DNA from: Ectocarpus siliculosus
Taxonomy: Eukaryota; Sar; Phaeophyceae; Ectocarpales; Ectocarpaceae
Assembly: GCA_000310025.1 (NCBI GenBank)
Contig: FN649741.1
Location: 2,218,628 to 2,257,182, forward strand
Reading direction: 5' to 3'
Length of the DNA stretch: 38,555 nt
How positions within the stretch are numbered: the first letter of the stretch is position 1; every line of letters begins with the position of its first letter. Shown here piece after piece: positions 28,675-38,555 of this stretch. The notes beneath the pieces were generated by a model that ran no database searches, was not told where the DNA came from, and saw only the letters and a program-made list of their open reading frames with translations. The position numbers were made by a program, and so were the translations under genes.

Positions 28675-29701
28675 CCGACCCACCGACGAACACAGCATAC
28701 CGCAGCATTGCCGTATGTATAGTGGTCGCTGTTTAGGGCCGCGTGGTAGTGCCAAGGGATTTGACCGGCATTTATACCGAGCACCCGGCACTGCTCATAT
28801 GAGATAGCTAGAATATGCCATCTCTCTTGTGGCACGCGATTTCACCGGCCTTGTACACAGCGACCGGCCTATAGATGTGGGGTGTACAGTAGGGACCTCT
28901 CAGAGCGCTAGCAGACGGTTGGGTCGCCCGCCCTTCTGACGCCACGCGGCGGAAATCTGGGACCAACAACGATGTCGACCTGGCCAAGCATCTGCACACC
29001 CGGGGCATCCTGAAGGGAGGGAGGATTTTATTCTGCCAACTCCTGCAATAAACGGAGGCACACACGAAACGTGTCCGCGGCCTCTTGTGGCATATACATG
29101 TATGTAGTCTAGTGTCGTCGTGAGCCACCGTTCTCCATGCTCTTGCAGGCGTTTGTCTGGGAAATTGCGTGGGCAAGGATGGAGATACTCTCCGCCCTGC
29201 TGCAGAAACTTGATGACAGAAGAATTCGATCACAGTAGGTGTTGTGAATTGTTGAGTTCTTTTGGGTCCAACCAAAGATCTAGTATCCAATTGCAGTGCA
29301 TTGTATGCTTGTAGGCTGTGCTGTGGGATCAAGTAGGTAACCTCGAAAAACGTTCCGGGGCACAGGAGTCCTTCCACTGTCGTCGTCAGCATGTACACGT
29401 GGGTGAACGTCCTCCACACATCCACCAACAACCGAGCCCCGCCAACATTCCTTCAGCCAGACGCACCGCTCTGTGGCCGGTGCGCCGGTGATGCTCTCTT
29501 CGCTGAAGGTTCCATTCCTGAATCTGTTCATTCCTCGTGCCCTGGCCCTGGTTCCACCGCAGGTGCTTCTGAACCATATTTTCAGTTCTGGAACTCCCGG
29601 GGATGTTAATGTTTTGTCCCCGGATGGCGCTCGCTCGTTTCCCGTAGGATAGCTTGTTAGGGCTGACAGAGCTACCCGCCACGTATAGGCCATCCTGCAG
29701 C
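28675..29701. other. Spacer between EF-hand-like gene and peroxidase-like gene
   Basis: About 1 kb that should hold the 3' UTR of the upstream gene and the promoter of the next. An AATAAA hexamer lies at about 29048, some 370 bp after the upstream stop. I see no coding exon or TATA box I can defend. Confidence 0.5.
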
Positions 29702-29832
29702 ATGCCGAGACACGGAGTCGCCGGGGTGTTCCTGGCTCTTGCGCTGGATAGAGGAACGGAGGCGTTCACTGCCTCCCCTAACTTCGGGCGCAATGCCGTC
29801 GTCAACACTCGGTCTCACGCCGATCGAAGAAG
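29702..29832 (+). CDS. Peroxidase-like gene, exon 1: ER signal and transit start
   Basis: Encodes MPRHGVAGVFLALALD, then RGTEAFTASPNFGR and on to HADRR. A short hydrophobic core followed by EA-F fits the signal peptide with Phe at the start of the transit peptide typical of complex plastids. The donor AGAAG|gtgaag is in phase 2 and matches the acceptor at 31281, completing a Ser codon. Confidence 0.75.
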
Positions 29833-31151
29833 GTGAAGCACCGCCCGACTTCCGTGCAAGGATCATCAGCGCTACTGCTGTATAGACTGCTGTATGTCCG
29901 CAACAACAGCAATGCATTTGTGCGTGTTGCCCATGCACGCCTTCCGATAGCTTCCAACAAGGGTCCTGTTGCAAAGATGTTTTTGCGCTCGGCAAGTTTG
30001 TCTGCTGGGAAGATTAGCTCAAGACTGCCTGTTCCTCCCCACGTCATGCCCGCAGTCGAGTCAGCGCGCATTGGAGCTGCTACGTCTTCTGCAGCAGTAG
30101 ACCTCACTTCTCTCCCCATCTTATCCCCAAAAGACGACAAGCCCAACCTTTACGACGGCAGCGTAATCCCTCACCTTTTTATTTGGGGGCTTTATGTGCG
30201 TTTGCAATGCGCTGTTGCGAGACATCCTTTTGTTGCACACAAGCATGTGTGCACAATCCGTCAACTCATGTCGTAGTACATACCGTATATGACACAAGAT
30301 AACACACCCCCTGGCCCGATTTTCAAAGATCGATTACTCGATGACGAAGAGGATACATAAACGAAATTATACATTTTCGAAAAGCTCCCAACGCGACGGT
30401 TCCAACGCCGCCGTTTTCGGCGCTGTGAGTCTTCCTGCTGTTGAGAAATCGATCTTTGAAAATCGGTCAAGGGGATGTGTTATCTTGTGTCATATACGGT
30501 ACACATCCAGCAGTACTGCGCATGATTACCTTATGCAGGTGACGTGACAGGTATCACACCGCCGGGACCACTTTTGAAAGCTAGAGTTTTTTCGGAGCAG
30601 AGAGAGTGACGATGCCGAAAATGGCGGCGTTGCAACCGCCTCGTCTCTTCGAGAGCTTTCCGAAAATGTATGGTTTTGTTCACATATTTTAACCCTCTTG
30701 GTCTTCCAGTATTGGGGAGTCCATATCGATCCAAGGGGTGCGGTTACTTGCCAAACGTACATACGGCAGTTTCGTTCAAGCTCGGCATCAACACTACCTG
30801 CTTCCACTGCTACTGTTCTGTGCATGCCATCGTGAGGTACGCAACCCAATGGCACGTCTCACCTACAGCGACGCCTCATCCATGCTGGTATGTTGGTAAT
30901 GATTTTATTACTTGTGGGCCGGTGTGTGGGCTTGCGCGTGGTAACGAACTCGCTTTGCTGCTTGGGCTTCTACCGTACGGGAGATGAAGAGGAGGGTACA
31001 TACCGCAGATCGGCCGGGACGGCTTTGAAGTGTGGAGGAGAACACAACAACAACAAAAACAACAACAGTGGCAGCAGCAGCCAACACCATCAACAACAAG
31101 ATCAACAACACCACCACCAATAGCAACAACGCAAACGGCAACAAACAACAA

Positions 31152-31194
<43 letters not shown>

Positions 31195-32153
31195 AATAAC
31201 GACAACACTAACGACAAATAAGACCAACACCACTACCACCACCAACAACAACAACAATAACATTTGTCCCCCTCTTGCAGCGTTTCGATGATGGCGGCCG
31301 CGGAAGAGGGCTCTACCGGGGGCGGGTCAAACCTGTGTCGGGGGGAGTTCATCTCGTCCGTGGCGGCATCCTTCGGTCTCGGTCTCGCCTTGGCGGTTTC
31401 ACCCGAGGCCGCCCAAGCGAGCGTTAACTTCGAGACGGAAAGGTACGGAGACAAAGAGCTCAAGATCGCCACCGTCAACAAGCTCAGGCAACAGATACGC
31501 AACTCAGTGAGTGTCGCCGGAGTGTCGCCGACCGCTGCCGTGTGTGAGTGAGTGTGTGTGGTTTGTTCTTAGCATCGACCGCGCAAACCGGCTGACCAAT
31601 GAAAATGTGCCAGTCTCAGTGCGGCTGAAAACGCAAACTGCTTCTAAAGGCTACCATGATCTGGGACCCCGCGAGGGGGGGGGGAGTGTAGGATGCTATT
31701 ATGCTACTCTCTAGATTAAAAAGTAATTTGTTGTGTCTGTGTCCTTTTCGCCTTGCGATATTTGTTTGTGTTTCTTTTTTTTATTCCATGATTTCATGTA
31801 CCCTTTGTGTTTGTCTCTCCGCAGTTGCTGGAGGACCCGAAGTTAGCGCCGGAAATGCTCAAGCTGGCCATCGCGGACGCCCTTGGGTTCGACGCGTCGA
31901 CCCAGACGGGCGGACCCGATGGCTCGGTGGTGCTGGAGCTGGACAGGTGAGACCGGACGGGACGTTTCCCGGCAACAAGTGCGACGGTGGCGGCAAGAGC
32001 ACGGCTTTAGCCCGGCAGGTGTATACTGTAGCAGCATCTTTTTGACGCCAAACCTTTGAGGAAGAGAATGAAACGGCTGGGTTTTTGTTTTCGCTGGTCC
32101 CCCTTTTTTTGTCTTTTGTTCTCGTCTCTCTTTCTCTTATCTCTGTTTGTGTT

Positions 32154-32225
<72 letters not shown>

Positions 32226-35200
32226 TCCCTCTCCCTCTCTCTGTCTGTCTCTGTCTGTCTCCCTGTCTGTCTCTCTCATCCTCAGGGAAGTGGCGAAGAG
32301 CTTGAAGCCAGCGGTGGACAATGCGTTCAAGATCAAAAAGAACCTGCAGCGCACGAATGAGATGACCCTCGCCGATGTTATTTCCATGGGGGGAGCGGAG
32401 GCTATCCACGCTTGCGGAGGCCCTCCCATGCTCGTACAGCTCGGAAGGTATCTACATGCTCCACAATTATTTTTTTCCAAGTGTTGATGCTTTTTGAGAC
32501 AACAGAGTATATTTTTGAAAGGGGGCTTAATCTTCCTAGGACTGGGCCTTTGTCCGTCATGGCATGGAACGGCGTGGGTTCAATCCTCTTGCAGCTGAGT
32601 TGGTGAGAGACAGTTTGTGAAGTATCGGCGGGATTAGAAAAAAATGCAGGCCCTCAGGCAAAGCGTATGTGACACACATCGTACGGTAGGACGTGCAACA
32701 CCTGCAATGTGTCCTCAGGGGTCAGATAGTCCACAATGCCTGTATACATGGAAGGAAAATGCTCTGGGTTCCATCTTGAGTTGAAGCGCGCATACGTGCC
32801 CATAAATGCGAAAAGGTGCCGATGTTGAGACGAGATTAATTTCGTTGTGGAATGGTATCCCACCATGCGCCAACGATTTGTTCCAGCATGTACGGACACT
32901 AGAAGGTACTGAGTGGAGACCGGAACGATTTTTAATGTGAAGACAACAACAACAACAACAACAACAATAACAACATGGTAGCTTCAACGAGAGCCACGGC
33001 CCAGTTCCCGAGGCAGAGTTCGCTTTCTTTTCTTCTTCTTTTTTCCTTTTTTTTTAACCAGGTATGATGAGAAGAAGGCGCCCAACCCTGCCGCCGACAT
33101 CAAAGGATACAGCTTCGACGAGCCCACCGGAGCCGGAGTCAAGGCCGCGTTCAAGCGGGCTGGCCTTGGGCCCAGGTGAGGAAGGGCCGGAACGCAACGC
33201 TCTATCGTTAATTAACCCCCCTTTTAAGATTCGTTGGTGCACCTTAGGGCCAAAGGGTGTGGTGTCGTCGCTGCCGGCGAAGCTGGATAGACAGCCGGAT
33301 CTCCGCTGCCGCAAAAGCACACGGAAATGTGTTACAGCGCGCGCTTTCATGGGTCCATTTTTGGAGCAAGGTGCTACAACAATGGTTACCAATGGGTGTG
33401 GTCTGGTCGTACCGGTGAATCTGTAGGCAGGCAGGTCTGTCTGTGCTGCTGCAAACGTACACGGAGGTACTTTCCATGTGTCGTCGCGCGTTTTCATTGG
33501 CGCATTTTTGGGCAAAGGTTCTTTCAATGGGTTGCCAATGGGTGTGGTCTCGTATGCATGCGCTGTACGGCCTTGGTAAGCATTCCACTTGACACACGCG
33601 CCGTCGAGCAGCCTAATGGGGAAAGATCGGAGTCAGCTCACGGCGAATCTGTAGACAGACGGGTATTGCTGCCGCAAGAGTACAAGGTCGGTGGTGTAGC
33701 TCACACGCGTTTCTGCGCGATTACCGCTCCGTTACGGCATGCGCATGCATCGCGACATGTGCCTCAACGGCGGTGATGCTTTGCGACAGGGAGATGGTGC
33801 TGCTGCTGGGAGCTCTCGGAAGTGTCTCGGATGCGGCTAGTGCTGTGGGAAATGGCGGGTGAGTCCACTGAGATAGAAGAGAAAATATGTACTGGACCGA
33901 TGCAACACCCAGGAAGTGGTTGTAGTGTTGCGACATTATCAGTTTTAGATCATGCGATCCACTTGACAATACTATTAGTTGCAACCGCGTTAGATGCCGC
34001 TTGTGGTACCGCTCCGGGAGACGGTGGGTTAGCCAATGGAGATGGAGCAAACACGCGCTCAACAATATATTACGCTATGAATTCGTTGATAATCTATCTT
34101 AGACTCTTTTCTTTGATAGAGATGGATTCGTTGGGTCACATCCAGAAAATATAGAATAACAACAAATGGCACAATAAAAACAAATGGCACAATTTTCCGC
34201 ATTGTCTCCCTCCTTCAAAAACAAAAAAGGGGCGACGGGGATGATGACGACTTGGAGGACCTGGCATGGCAGAACAGCATCCCCAACACCTTCGGGAAGG
34301 AGTCAGACAAGCTCGGGAGGCCGCTGTCGAACTCCTTCGGGCCGGGTTTCCTGCAAAGAGTCGCCGCGGCTGGAAAGGACGGGGGGGGGATAGGGGTGGT
34401 GGGGAAGGCTCTCCTGGAAGATGATGAGGTCAAGACGTACGTCAGAAAATACGCGGGGAACTCCAAGGTAGGCGTGAAGGTAAAACAGTGCACAACGCGC
34501 ATTTACTTTTCGGTTACAATCTAAGAACTTGGCCCAAAGAACAGGTGCTTCGTCAAGAAACCTGCTCTAAAACCTATATAGTCGAAGCCTACACTATGAC
34601 CTATACGGTACAGTCGAAGCCTGCGCTATAACCTGTATTGTCGAATCCTACACTATAACCTATATGATCGAAGCCTACATTCAAACCTAGATATCGTCGA
34701 AGTCTACACTGTATTATCGAGGTACAGTACAGTACCCCATATTCTTAACAAGAAGCGAGCCTCGCCCAAATGATGAGGTTCTTCCATGGTGGAGCGTTCT
34801 GTAGGCGCCACTACATAGCGTTGTTGGCGAAGTGTTTCAGAGATCACCGGGGTAATTTGTTGGAGCGCCGGTAGGCGTAAGATAATTCCGCAGCGGCAAG
34901 ACAAGACAAGACTTTTGTGTTTGTGGTTCTACATGAGTTGGTTTTGCACCGGTGGTGCGTTCAACAGTGGGACAGACGGCTCCGGAGGACCCCGTTTGCT
35001 GTGAGGCGTGGGACACAAGAGTTAATAACCGGCAGGATTTGCGTCTATTGCTATCTGCTCCGATGCCATGCCGTGAATGCCGCATGCCGGACGTGTGGTA
35101 CAATCAACTCGCTCTAACGACACACACCGTTCTTGTCGCACAACCAACGCGGTCACATCACACACACACCGGTCTTGTCGCACAATAAACCCGCTCACGC

Positions 35201-35374
35201 CGCCGTGTCTTGTGACCGTCTGGGATACTTGCGCGCGCGATCCGCGCGCCGGGGATGGATGGGTGTTCCAAACCAAACCGTGAATTTCGACAGGCGTTCA
35301 TGTCGGATCTGTCTGAGGCCTACACCAAGATGACCTTACTCGGGGAGCGCTATGAGACGCGCAACGCCATTTAA
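29702..35374 (+). CDS. Thylakoid-lumen class I peroxidase homologue lacking heme residues (TL29/APX4-like)
   Basis: Eight exons: 29702-29832, 31281-31506, 31825-31946, 32286-32447, 33062-33175, 33790-33858, 34230-34467, 35294-35374; 380 residues, all phases consistent, TAA at 35372-35374. The mature part aligns by eye with ascorbate peroxidases: APEMLKLAIADALGFD, TGGPDGS, TLADVISMGGAEAIHACGGP, LVQLGRYDEKKAP, and the C-terminal GKALLEDDEV...YAGNSKAFMSDLSEAYTKM. The catalytic positions are gone: distal Arg38/Trp41/His42 become Lys132/Ile135/Ala136; the proximal His of GGHTLG falls at Leu261 in GALGS; the Asp before KALL is Gly333. It should therefore neither bind heme in the usual way nor reduce peroxide, as reported for plant TL29. 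The leader carries a signal peptide, a transit region and a lumen signal (65-90) ending EAAQA. Residues 275-283 are a Gly/Asp loop at an exon junction. The function is unknown; an association with photosystem II is only an analogy to TL29. Confidence 0.85.
30283..30499. mobile_element. 217-bp MITE with long terminal inverted repeats and TA flanks
   Basis: The first 24 bases (ccgtatatgacacaagataa and four more) are the exact reverse complement of the last 24. Pairing continues with few mismatches through cgattttcaaagatcgatt, about 53 bp in total. The element is flanked by TA on both sides (30281-30282, 30500-30501), as for Tc1/mariner-type insertions. It lies in intron 1 of the peroxidase-like gene. 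The core resembles sequences at 30605-30670 (opposite strand) and 10800-10845. Confidence 0.8.
30556..30690 (-). repeat. Second, inverted copy of the MITE core
   Basis: On the minus strand it reads atacattttcggaaagctct, then ggttgcaacgccgccatttt, matching the centre of the MITE at 30370-30430. The termini are not conserved. A third core copy is at 10800-10845 in the kinase-like gene. Confidence 0.6.
31040..31262. repeat. CAA/AAC trinucleotide microsatellite
   Basis: Imperfect caa/aac/cac triplets, pure aac-type from about 31148 to 31195, ending about 20 bp before the exon 2 acceptor of the peroxidase-like gene. A second short aac tract is at 32941-32972. Confidence 0.95.
31281..31506 (+). 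CDS. Peroxidase-like gene, exon 2: lumen-targeting signal
   Basis: Follows cccctcttgcag. After MMAAAEEGSTGGG comes NLCRGEFISSVAASFGLGLA and LAVSPEAAQA, a hydrophobic thylakoid-transfer segment with a plausible cleavage after AQA. Homologous Tat signals have two Arg; here the pair reads Arg-Gly, with only Arg64. The exon ends AACTCA|gtgagt in phase 0. Confidence 0.8.
31565..31690 (+). repeat. ACCGGCTGACCAAT dispersed repeat copy
   Basis: Contains gcatcgaccgcgcaaaccgg, ctgaccaatgaaaa, gtgcggctgaaaac and a terminal catgatctgggaccccgcga block shared with the copy at 7022-7130. It is in intron 2 of the peroxidase-like gene. Confidence 0.8.
32154..32280. repeat. CT microsatellite at a splice acceptor
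   Basis: Continuous ct/ccct/gtct repeats, ending directly at the acceptor cctcag for the exon at 32286. The microsatellite serves as the polypyrimidine tract of that intron. Confidence 0.95.
33280..33680. repeat. About 140-bp tandem repeat, two units and a partial
   Basis: Units near 33282-33420 and 33421-33560 share ctgc(c)gcaa...acacgga, cgcgcgctttcat/cgcgcgttttcat, catttttgg and caatgggtgtggtct. A partial third begins near 33644 (gaatctgtagacagacgggt). It is in intron 5 of the peroxidase-like gene. Confidence 0.75.
34522..34730. repeat. TAAGAACTTGG fragment and 31-33-bp minisatellite
   Basis: 34522-34555 (taagaacttggcccaaagaa, caggtgctt) matches motifs at 13704-13732 and 15703-15733 in the TIR element. 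It is followed by five diverged units of gtcgaagcctacactataac (about 34575-34725). It is in intron 7 of the peroxidase-like gene. Confidence 0.75.
35110..35205. repeat. 42-bp tandem repeat
   Basis: cttgtcgcacaaccaacgcg and cttgtcgcacaataaacccg recur 42 bp apart, separated by CA-rich spacer. It lies shortly before the last exon of the peroxidase-like gene. Confidence 0.7.
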
Positions 35375-35714
35375 GATGAGATGAACACCGTCGTTATTTT
35401 GTTTTTTCGGGTTTATTATGCTGTAGTTGATGTCGCGATGGGCCTGATGTGAAGTTGATGTCACGATGGGTCTGATGTGATGTTTAATGGGACTGGATAT
35501 CACCTCAGTATGACGGTGGTCGGGCGTCGCTTGGGCCCGAAGGCTTTTTCTTTCTCATGCTGTGCCAGTAACACGTTTGTCCCCTTTTAGACGTTGCCGG
35601 GCGCGGAATTCTGCCGTCGCTGCCGGAGGGGGTCTATGGATTTTTGTACGAGGTTACCCCCCTTCTGCTGTCCACTACTAAACTTCGATGAAGAGCGCCC
35701 AGCATGAGCATGGT

Positions 35715-35938
35715 TCAAGGCAGCGGTAGCGCCGGTGTCGTCAGCGATAGCAGTAGCGGCGGTGGCCCGGGCACGGAGGGCTCCTGGTCCCAGGCTGGTG
35801 TAGTAGTAGCACCTCGCGGGGCAAAGAGAAGGGAGCAACTGCTTGTGAAATCAAAACCGCGAGGAGATAGAGACGCGCCGGGCAGTGTCTTGGCTTGCTG
35901 GGCTTTGGCTTGTCGGTAGAGCGCGACGGACTCTTGCA
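35715..35938 (-). CDS. Possible terminal exon of a convergent gene
   Basis: On the minus strand, after a plausible acceptor (cctgccctattgcaag), a frame reads ESVALYRQAKAQQAKTLPG and on to a Pro/Leu-rich tail ending TPALPLP and a stop. The first 20 residues look helical and coding-like; the rest is low complexity. No upstream exon with matching phase was found, and other frames are also open here. Confidence 0.2.
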
Positions 35939-38555
35939 ATAGGGCAGGAACCACGGCTGGGTGGCAGCAGTGCTGCACTTTAGAAAAAAAGAGAAAAAAG
36001 TCGTCCCGCTTGCGGAAACGCGGTATTATATTAGCAGTAGGCAGGCAAGGAGAGACTGACATACATAGAGGCACGGTCAATGCCGTAGTGAAAAACCGGT
36101 GGGATGGTTCACTCGTCGGCCCTGGAGAGGAAGAGCTGTTTAGCGCGGGCGGGTGGTCGCTATAGGGCAGGTGAACTCTCTTGTTACAGATACAGTAGAG
36201 CAGTCATGTTGATTTTTCGCCTCCAACAGGGAGGGTGCCCAACATTGGGCGGGTGAACCGGCGCGGCACAAAAACGTACACCTGTCTTGTTGTAGAGAGC
36301 CCACGACGGGTGTTCCGTGGACCGAGTAGCCGACGTTCCGCATTTTTTGTTGGAGTCCTCTTGTGGAGCGAGCGGGTTCAGAGGACATCGAGAGAGTGTG
36401 GGTGTTGGGTGTGCCTGATGTGTAGACTATTTGATCATGAAGTGCCAAGGGTTATCGGAGCACGTCACGTTGCGCTCCCATCGCACCAGAAAACGCATAT
36501 GGATCGGTGTGTTTTCATTGTTGGCATCGACGGCGCTAACCGGCTGACCAATGGAAAGACGTCAGTGTCAGCGGATAAAAAATCAAGATCGGTGTGTGTG
36601 TTTGTAAACAAGGGGCGGGGGGGAGGCGGAGAATCATGACCGCTCTGTGTCTGACGGCCAAGTTTAGGACGAGCTTGGGTGGACACCTCACAGGGATGGC
36701 GCGAATGACCTATTACATGCACGGTACGAGTTGTACCCTCCCGTCCTATCCCGTGCCCCATTATTCTCGAACCGCCGTGCGATATTCTTCGGACAAGATG
36801 CCATATATGGTGTGGTGGTCCGGCTCCGCTTCTGTTTTTTGTTTTTTTTTCGGTTGTGCTGAAAGAAGGCGGGCGTTTCAGACAATGTAGCAAGCAGTAA
36901 CTGAATACCAAGCATTTGAGAGTGTCCACCAGCTCACTCAACATGGGGGGATAAGTCTCCCTCCCTAGGTTTAGGTGTGTTGTGTCGGGACAACAAGCAG
37001 GCAGCAGGTAGACCAACGAGCTCACCATCGTTTTAACTCCTCGTTGTTGTGGAGATAGATGAGCTTTACAAATGGTCACATCTCCCCCCGAATGTCTGTT
37101 GAGGACGATGAGTCTTTCCACTCTGAATTGCGTCGACATGGGGATGTCTAACTTTGATGGAAGAGAACCCGGGTTCGGTTCAAATCCCGCCGCCCACCAC
37201 ATATGAAGAGGGAAAAAACGGGGGGAAAACCATGGTAACACGGTAGGGACTGAAAAAAAAAATGTTTGCCCCTTGATATACAATCGTAGATTAGGTGTGT
37301 GATGCATCTGTCATCACTGCCCGCTGCATGCCTGTCGCCGACAAGCAGACATCGAGACCCAGCCTACAACCACGAACGGCCATCTACGCGAACAACAAGG
37401 CCCTAACTATAAATCACTAATATTGTGTTGCCTGAGGAACAAGCCCAAGCAAGCGAAAAATCGGCCAAGAGAGGACTTTCAAAAAAAAAAAAGTGAGCTG
37501 CACCAAAAGTGCTATCCTTTCCCTTATTAACCCTTTTGAGTCTTCAGGCGTTCTCACTGATCATTGATTGATCATTTGCAAATGCTGGTGTAGTGGCAAG
37601 TCGTGGAGTTGCCGCCCTGCAGCCCTTCGCGCCGTGTATTGGCAAGTCCATAGGTAGGTGTGTCTAGATTATTAGCACCGGCGCTAACCGGCTGACCAAT
37701 GAAGAGACTTCAGTGACAGCGGGTAATATCAAGGTCTCGGGAATGGGAATGGGGCCAATCAATGCCAAATAATGAATCTCTCAATGTATGCACATGTCAA
37801 TAAACGCGTGTGTGCGTACAGCAGTACATACATACATACATATGTGTTCTTTCGCAGCACCACACATACACTCGCCCGAACGTAGGAAGCCACTGCTGCA
37901 AAGAGCAGAGGACAGCCAAAGGGAGGGGTATTGCAGTCCCTGCCGAAGCCCAGATATCGAGGATATCGTGGTTCCCAACAATTTGAAAATCGTTCCCAAG
38001 ATCCCGCAGTCATTGTGTCAACAGCTACAACGAACGCTACAACAACACTACTACTACTGCTGTAGACGAGTAAAACATATCAGCAACACATCCACACTCG
38101 TAGCGCCACACATACCACCCTCGCCCGAACCTAGGAAACCACGAGGTACAGGTGTGTGCTGGTGGATGTGCTTGTTGTTTGACAAACACAGGAGCTCTAG
38201 AGAGTTGGCAGGGCACATTTCGGGGGGGGACAGAGAACAGAGAAGTACAGAAGTACAAATACCAGCTATGGGTCTTCACTGATCATTTTGCCCTCTCTGG
38301 ACTGATCATTTACAATATACCGAAAATAGACTAGTTGAGGCAGCTAGACGACTGATCATTTCAAAGGCTACACAGCTAACCTGCCCTACTGACCGCAGCG
38401 CGACCACCCACCAACCCTTCTACGACCCTGTCTGTGGCCACCACCGTGTCGCCGGCTTCTCTCATGGCCTACAGGTGGAGATAGCTGTTGCGTGTGCAGA
38501 AGTACACTGGTGTCTTTCTCTGCACTTCTCTCTCTCCCGCTCGCTCTCGCTCTCA
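35939..38555. other. Right-hand spacer with repeats
   Basis: I see no supported gene. It contains two plus-strand copies of the ACCGGCTGACCAAT repeat (about 36524-36600 and 37670-37740), a retroelement-like relic (37076-37200), a short duplication of ctcgcccgaacctaggaa-type sequence (37869 and 38121), several tgatcatt motifs (37555-37580, 38278-38360) and CT-rich sequence at the right edge. Confidence 0.5.
36524..37740 (+). repeat. Two further ACCGGCTGACCAAT repeat copies
   Basis: gcatcgacggcgctaaccgg and ctgaccaatggaaag at 36524-36560; gcaccggcgctaaccggctg and accaatgaagagac at 37674-37710. Both continue with a tcagtg(t)cagcgg(a)ta block, so these two are closer to each other than to the 31.6-kb copy. 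Confidence 0.75.

Follow-up and report, generated by a model that had tools for sequence, protein, structure and literature searches.

An APX-L-type protein lacking heme-site residues, with a predicted thylakoid lumen address, encoded in Ectocarpus siliculosus

The window analyzed here (the whole stretch of 38,555 nucleotides from the brown alga Ectocarpus siliculosus) carries a gene whose product is, by sequence definition, an APX-L protein, that is, a member of the family of plant TL29/APX4. Judged from the alignment, the residues for holding heme or for breaking down peroxide have been lost from this protein. We give a probability of roughly 0.6 to the reading that the gene shares an ancestor with TL29/APX4 and that its product is sent to the thylakoid lumen, where it would act as a non-catalytic auxiliary factor or chaperone of photosystem II, with Cys203 as a possible redox handle. 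As far as the partial texts available to our literature search go, APX-L proteins have been reported from green plants and green algae only, and no report from a red-plastid alga was found. The window protein is likely a true relative of TL29 and a new member of its family, which is little understood and was not expected in this lineage.

Gene model and predicted targeting

The splice model gives a single open frame of 380 amino acids on the forward strand, composed of 8 exons separated by introns that are all of the GT..AG type. It reproduced exactly the gene limits proposed in the preliminary description (29702-35374), ending in a TAA stop codon. The features of the gene, in window coordinates, are the following:

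29702..35374, + strand: whole gene, APX-L-like protein of 380 aa, 8 exons (splice model; PF00141 E 9.6e-18)
29702..29832, + strand: exon 1, hydrophobic N-terminus resembling a signal peptide (highest-scoring window at residues 5-15), then TEA|F (hydropathy; motif from general knowledge)
31281..31506, + strand: exon 2, putative remainder of the transit peptide, lumen-targeting segment, AQA|S and start of the mature protein (sequence; hydropathy)
31417-31419 (exon 2), + strand: Ala90 of AQA|S (sequence)
31825..31946, + strand: exon 3, distal helix, where Lys132, Ile135 and Ala136 (nucleotides 31861-31875) replace Arg38, Trp41 and His42 (alignment)
32286..32447, + strand: exon 4, LADVISMGGAEAI block and Cys203 (32413-32415) (alignment)
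33062..33175, + strand: exon 5, from the GRYDEKKAP block to AGLGP (splice model; alignment)
33790..33858, + strand: exon 6, proximal helix, without His163-Thr164 between Ala260 and Leu261 (33812-33817) (alignment)
34230..34467, + strand: exon 7, acidic Gly/Asp-rich stretch at the site of the heme-proximal loop; Gly333 (34402-34404) replaces Asp208 (alignment)
35294..35374, + strand: exon 8, C-terminal scaffold helix, then the TAA stop (splice model; alignment)

The search of the 189 Mb host assembly with the mature protein gave 7 exon matches, all of them located in the window, so the gene is apparently present in a single copy; besides these exons, 2 further matches appeared at E 6.3. Elsewhere in this assembly, a polyketide synthase exon has 91 of 91 residues identical with PDB 4b0n, a protein of Ectocarpus siliculosus, and a search for the RuBisCO large subunit gave no match.

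Regarding the presequence, hydropathy analysis places the best hydrophobic segment at residues 5-15 and a second one within residues 67-87. The motif TEA|F resembles the way in which heterokont plastid transit peptides begin, with a phenylalanine, AQA|S fits a lumen cleavage site, and these elements fit a heterokont signal peptide plus transit peptide. As a whole, the presequence fits a predicted targeting to the thylakoid lumen of a secondary plastid. The twin arginine of the Tat route is absent from the sequence of the window protein, which presents Arg64-Gly65 in its place, whereas TL29 uses the Tat route (PMC3813922, in the part available). The predicted mature protein has 290 aa, 30.7 kDa, a pI of 5.1 and one cysteine, Cys203, which the alignment also places in TL29.

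Two repeats were observed in the introns. Intron 1 contains an element of 221 bases (window 30281-30501) with 59-base terminal inverted repeats that are 93% complementary; it was found in at least 40 places of the genome at 95-100% identity, its own copy included, with 40 of 1487 candidates scored. This element represents a MITE-like family that has been recently active. In addition, an extended simple repeat rich in CT occupies the end of intron 3 (window 32156-32274), close to the acceptor.

Peroxidase scaffold and lost residues

The preliminary description had recognized a class I peroxidase fold, and the results agree with it: PF00141 matches residues 113-351 with 65.3 bits (E 9.6e-18) against a curated cut-off of 27 bits, which places the protein on the class I scaffold. 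The structural blocks that had been listed as kept (TGGPDGS, LADVISMGGAEAI, GRYDEKKAP and the C-terminal helix) all align with APX. The top PDB match was the ascorbate peroxidase 8djr (E 1.6e-14), and TL29 (3rrw) was matched at E 1.9e-8. A photosystem-bound homologue was also sought among the PDB sequence matches, and none so named was present among the best 60 of 160.

The lost residues were defined with the numbering of pea APX, after aligning 14 peroxidases of class I. Arg38, Trp41 and His42 are carried by every row other than the window protein and TL29 (12/12), and His163 by all those rows with a letter at that position (11/11). The replacements found in the window protein are R38->K132, W41->I135, H42->A136, N71->K167, R172->A268 and D208->G333, while W179->D281 falls within a poorly aligned insertion of this protein. 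The by-eye placement of Lys132, Ile135 and Ala136 at the distal Arg/Trp/His, and that of Gly333 at the proximal Asp, were thus confirmed. The placement of Leu261 at the proximal His stood in part: there is no His at that site, but the alignments put His163-Thr164 opposite a two-residue gap (GAHTLG vs GA--LG) and Leu261 just after it. An ungapped placement, with Leu261 at position 163, is likewise possible, and in either case the His would be missing. Arg38, Trp41, His42, His163 and Arg172 are therefore represented by Lys, Ile, Ala, a gap and Ala, which is what the sequence definition of APX-L describes. Neither the residue set of APX (Arg38, Trp41, His42, His163 and Arg172) nor that of APX-R (Arg38, Phe41, His42 and His163) is present in the aligned window protein.

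The preliminary description had named a different splicing that restores the lost motifs as a result that would refute its reading. A six-frame regular-expression scan of 29000-36600 for unbroken motifs found no locus restoring RxxWH-like or GGHTLG-like sequences, so that no whole motif of either type waits in an intron; the sole match, KLGIN at 30778, is loose and unrelated. This result bears on the explanation that the gene is decaying, or that its model is wrong and has no product. The loss of the catalytic residues would agree with it. However, all 8 exons are joined at canonical splice sites, the 380 codons are free of stops, the scaffold blocks and the targeting segments are kept, and no whole motif is available elsewhere for splicing in; we regard decay or a wrong model as extremely improbable.

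In the genome, the PF00141 profile search gave 31 exon matches, grouped as 12 loci including the window gene. A simple spliced aligner produced models for seven regions: three plastid-type APX (L021, L022 and L025), two CcP-like (L023 and L024) and two KatG-like peroxidases (L026 and L027). In all seven the distal triad is conserved, as is the proximal His where the alignment covers it, and the KatG N-terminal piece L002 has the distal triad as well; among the genome peroxidases checked (7 models and L002), none shares the losses of the window gene. Six loci were grouped as KatG-type. KatG matches of equal or near-equal score were located on two short contigs, C418 and C280 (L003, L004, L007 and L008); the two contigs may represent alternative versions of a single locus, or a duplication, and 4 other loci were grouped as KatG-type besides them.

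Kinship with TL29

The main tree was built under a mixture model from 14 rows and 235 columns, with TL29 as the only APX-L row, no APX-R row, and pea, switchgrass and tobacco as the only solved plant APX chains. The KatG-type loci L026, L027 and L002 (N-terminal domain) were included, and some rows are partial (L002 is 46% filled; L022, L023, L024, L026 and L027 are without one or both ends). In this tree, which answers the earlier suggestion of a comparison with TL29 and algal APX, the window protein was joined to the one TL29 sequence with a support of 100/98, along with the APX rows; its branch was very long (1.98). AU tests rejected its grouping with plastid APX (p 0.007), with cytosolic APX (0.004) and with the plastid APX of the alga itself (6.6e-5), and also a position outside the group of TL29 and APX (0.004). 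A group of the active APX rows that excludes TL29 and the window protein was compatible with the data (AU p 0.19), and so the pair may branch before or within APX. When the 39 columns in which the other 12 rows do not vary were removed, the support was 98/96 and the AU p value against plastid APX was 0.022. A second alignment method kept the same 235 columns and gave the same tree; for this reason it is no independent check.

Two KatG C-terminal domains (from L007 and L013) were added as long-branch bait. The pairing with TL29 stayed at 100/99, and the tool warned of long branches meeting. The bait did not pull the window protein from TL29. Furthermore, 200 alignments were simulated under each of two trees without kinship, and quick trees were built for the first 32 of each. 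The pair appeared as sisters in 12 of the 64 trees, with a best SH-aLRT of 82 compared with 98 for the real data by the same quick method; hence 0/64 reached the observed branch support, in simulations that assume no relaxed constraint in both proteins. We consider long-branch attraction an unlikely source of the pairing with TL29. The alignment also presents 9 residues common to the window protein and TL29 and absent from the 12 other rows, a count that is weak by itself because 18/200 and 28/200 of the simulations without kinship reached it.

A different history would be an independent loss, in which a stramenopile plastid or cytosolic APX was retargeted to the lumen, lost heme binding and converged on TL29. 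In raw BLAST, active plant APX scored above TL29 (switchgrass cytosolic APX 68.6 bits, tobacco stromal APX 60.1, pea APX 59.3 and TL29 56.2), and the alga's own plastid APX reached 36.6-40.4 bits; by these scores TL29 does not stand out as the nearest kin. Positions 41/42 are also different, being Ile/Ala in the window protein and Leu/Asn in TL29, and proto-APX-L forms suggest a stepwise loss within the green line (PMC8069737, in the part available). On the other hand, the AU tests reject the plastid, cytosolic and own APX groupings, and the alignment shows an identical two-residue gap at the proximal His of the window protein and TL29. It should be noted that this common gap depends on the alignment, because TL29 is given a Val at position 163 in a figure legend of PMC11496181. 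Independent loss is also opposed by the introns: in our own splice models, none of the 6 mature-region introns of the window gene has a counterpart in the three plastid APX paralogues, whose own introns agree at all 6 positions, and this mismatch argues against the window gene being a recent copy of them. Altogether, the tree tests favour shared ancestry with TL29 over independent loss from the alga's own APX genes, and a separate loss seems unlikely to us, while keeping appreciable weight.

The preliminary description had offered either a conserved job or an independent loss; the tree tests, with one TL29 sequence, lean to common descent with TL29 over a loss from the alga's own APX. Its proposal that a red-plastid alga carries a TL29-like pseudo-peroxidase agrees with the APX-L definition and with a presequence that fits the lumen, but the pairwise scores do not speak for TL29.

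Proposed role and comparison with known systems

In the role that we propose, an APX homologue without heme site would enter the secondary plastid and then the thylakoid lumen, where it would most likely bind photosystem II, or its assembly or repair intermediates, as a non-catalytic auxiliary or chaperone. The helical scaffold of the peroxidase would offer the binding surface, and Cys203, common to TL29, may serve as a thiol-redox handle. Both the photosystem II role and the redox handle are suggested by analogy, from TL29 only. According to the available parts of the sources, TL29 has no heme and no ascorbate activity and is associated with photosystem II (PMC11496181, PMC10669542), the recombinant protein being without both activity and heme (PMC11496181). 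It is also a target of thioredoxin with constitutive expression (PMC3813922, Table 1), and it is abundant, with 411.5 spectra in the Arabidopsis free-lumen fraction, where it was considered a possible PSII chaperone (PMC8346976). The profile search of the host genome gave one strong exon match for PsbO and one weak exon match for PsbP, and no match for PsbQ (PF05757), a candidate partner of TL29; the missing PF05757 match counts against the analogy, and a partner in the alga could be a protein other than PsbQ. Immediately upstream of the PsbO match, the assembly consists of N.

Some observations fit less well with a non-catalytic role. More H2O2 is reported in apx4 mutants of Arabidopsis and Chlamydomonas (PMC11496181), and lower APX activity in Chlamydomonas APX4 knock-down lines (PMC7414030); the latter fits an inactive protein badly, because Chlamydomonas APX4 is called APX-L elsewhere. 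The H2O2 rise in these two green species, as well as the Cys203 common to TL29, could indicate that the protein still acts on peroxide or another ligand, using other chemistry such as that of Cys203 or of a metal. However, the window protein is without heme ligand, distal base and second cysteine in its mature form, and the recombinant TL29 mentioned above is reported to be inactive with ascorbate and free of heme; such a chemistry appears to us quite improbable.

A broader view than our preferred reading of a non-catalytic lumen protein, and one that we advance tentatively, with the odds somewhat against it, is that a heme-free lumen peroxidase fold predates the split between green and red plastids, or passed between them, and that both lineages retained it as a photosystem II factor without enzymatic role, its redox cysteine being conserved. 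If the window gene is an orthologue, the job of TL29 would be far older and broader than thought, and Lys132, Cys203 and the GLGPR turn, common to such distant copies, would be direct targets for finding it. This 'dead' peroxidase may fulfil an ancient function at the photosynthetic membrane.

In the available text of PMC8069737, where APX-L was defined, the family comprises only charophytes, bryophytes and angiosperms and is placed as a late streptophyte invention, whereas Chlamydomonas APX4 is counted as APX-L in PMC10669542. The latter source, also available in part, mentions two diatoms with APX-R without Tat motif, and a portion of PMC4232752 mentions APx-related enzymes in Bacillariophyta. 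The search for relatives in collections not meant to hold algae gave 64 and 18 pattern matches in viral contigs and 146 in bacterial and archaeal genomes, none of them confirmed.

Among the known systems, APX-R resembles the window protein as an APX-derived plastid protein without ascorbate site, but it keeps Arg38, Phe41, His42 and His163 (PMC8069737, in part) and is set apart here by definition alone. The plastid and cytosolic APX (1iyn, 1apx; L021, L022 and L025) belong to the same peroxidase family and align overall, but they keep Arg38, Trp41, His42 and His163. Chlamydomonas APX4, filed as APX-L and with a reported role in high-light tolerance (available text of PMC10669542), is similar by description only. 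TL29/APX4 of Arabidopsis (3rrw) differs from the window protein, with 27% identity over 182 aligned positions, a large deletion where the window protein keeps a proximal-domain stretch that is acidic there, and at least two insertions of its own; the window protein, in turn, has no twin arginine and a red-plastid host. Nevertheless, both proteins present a class I scaffold with the catalytic and heme residues lost, a Lys at Arg38 (Lys, Leu and Asn at 38/41/42 in TL29), the same His163-Thr164 gap in the alignment, the GLGPR string and one common Cys, together with a lumen-type presequence (putative in the window protein) and similar mature sizes, 29.3 kDa for TL29 (PMC8346976, in the part available) and 30.7 kDa for the window protein.
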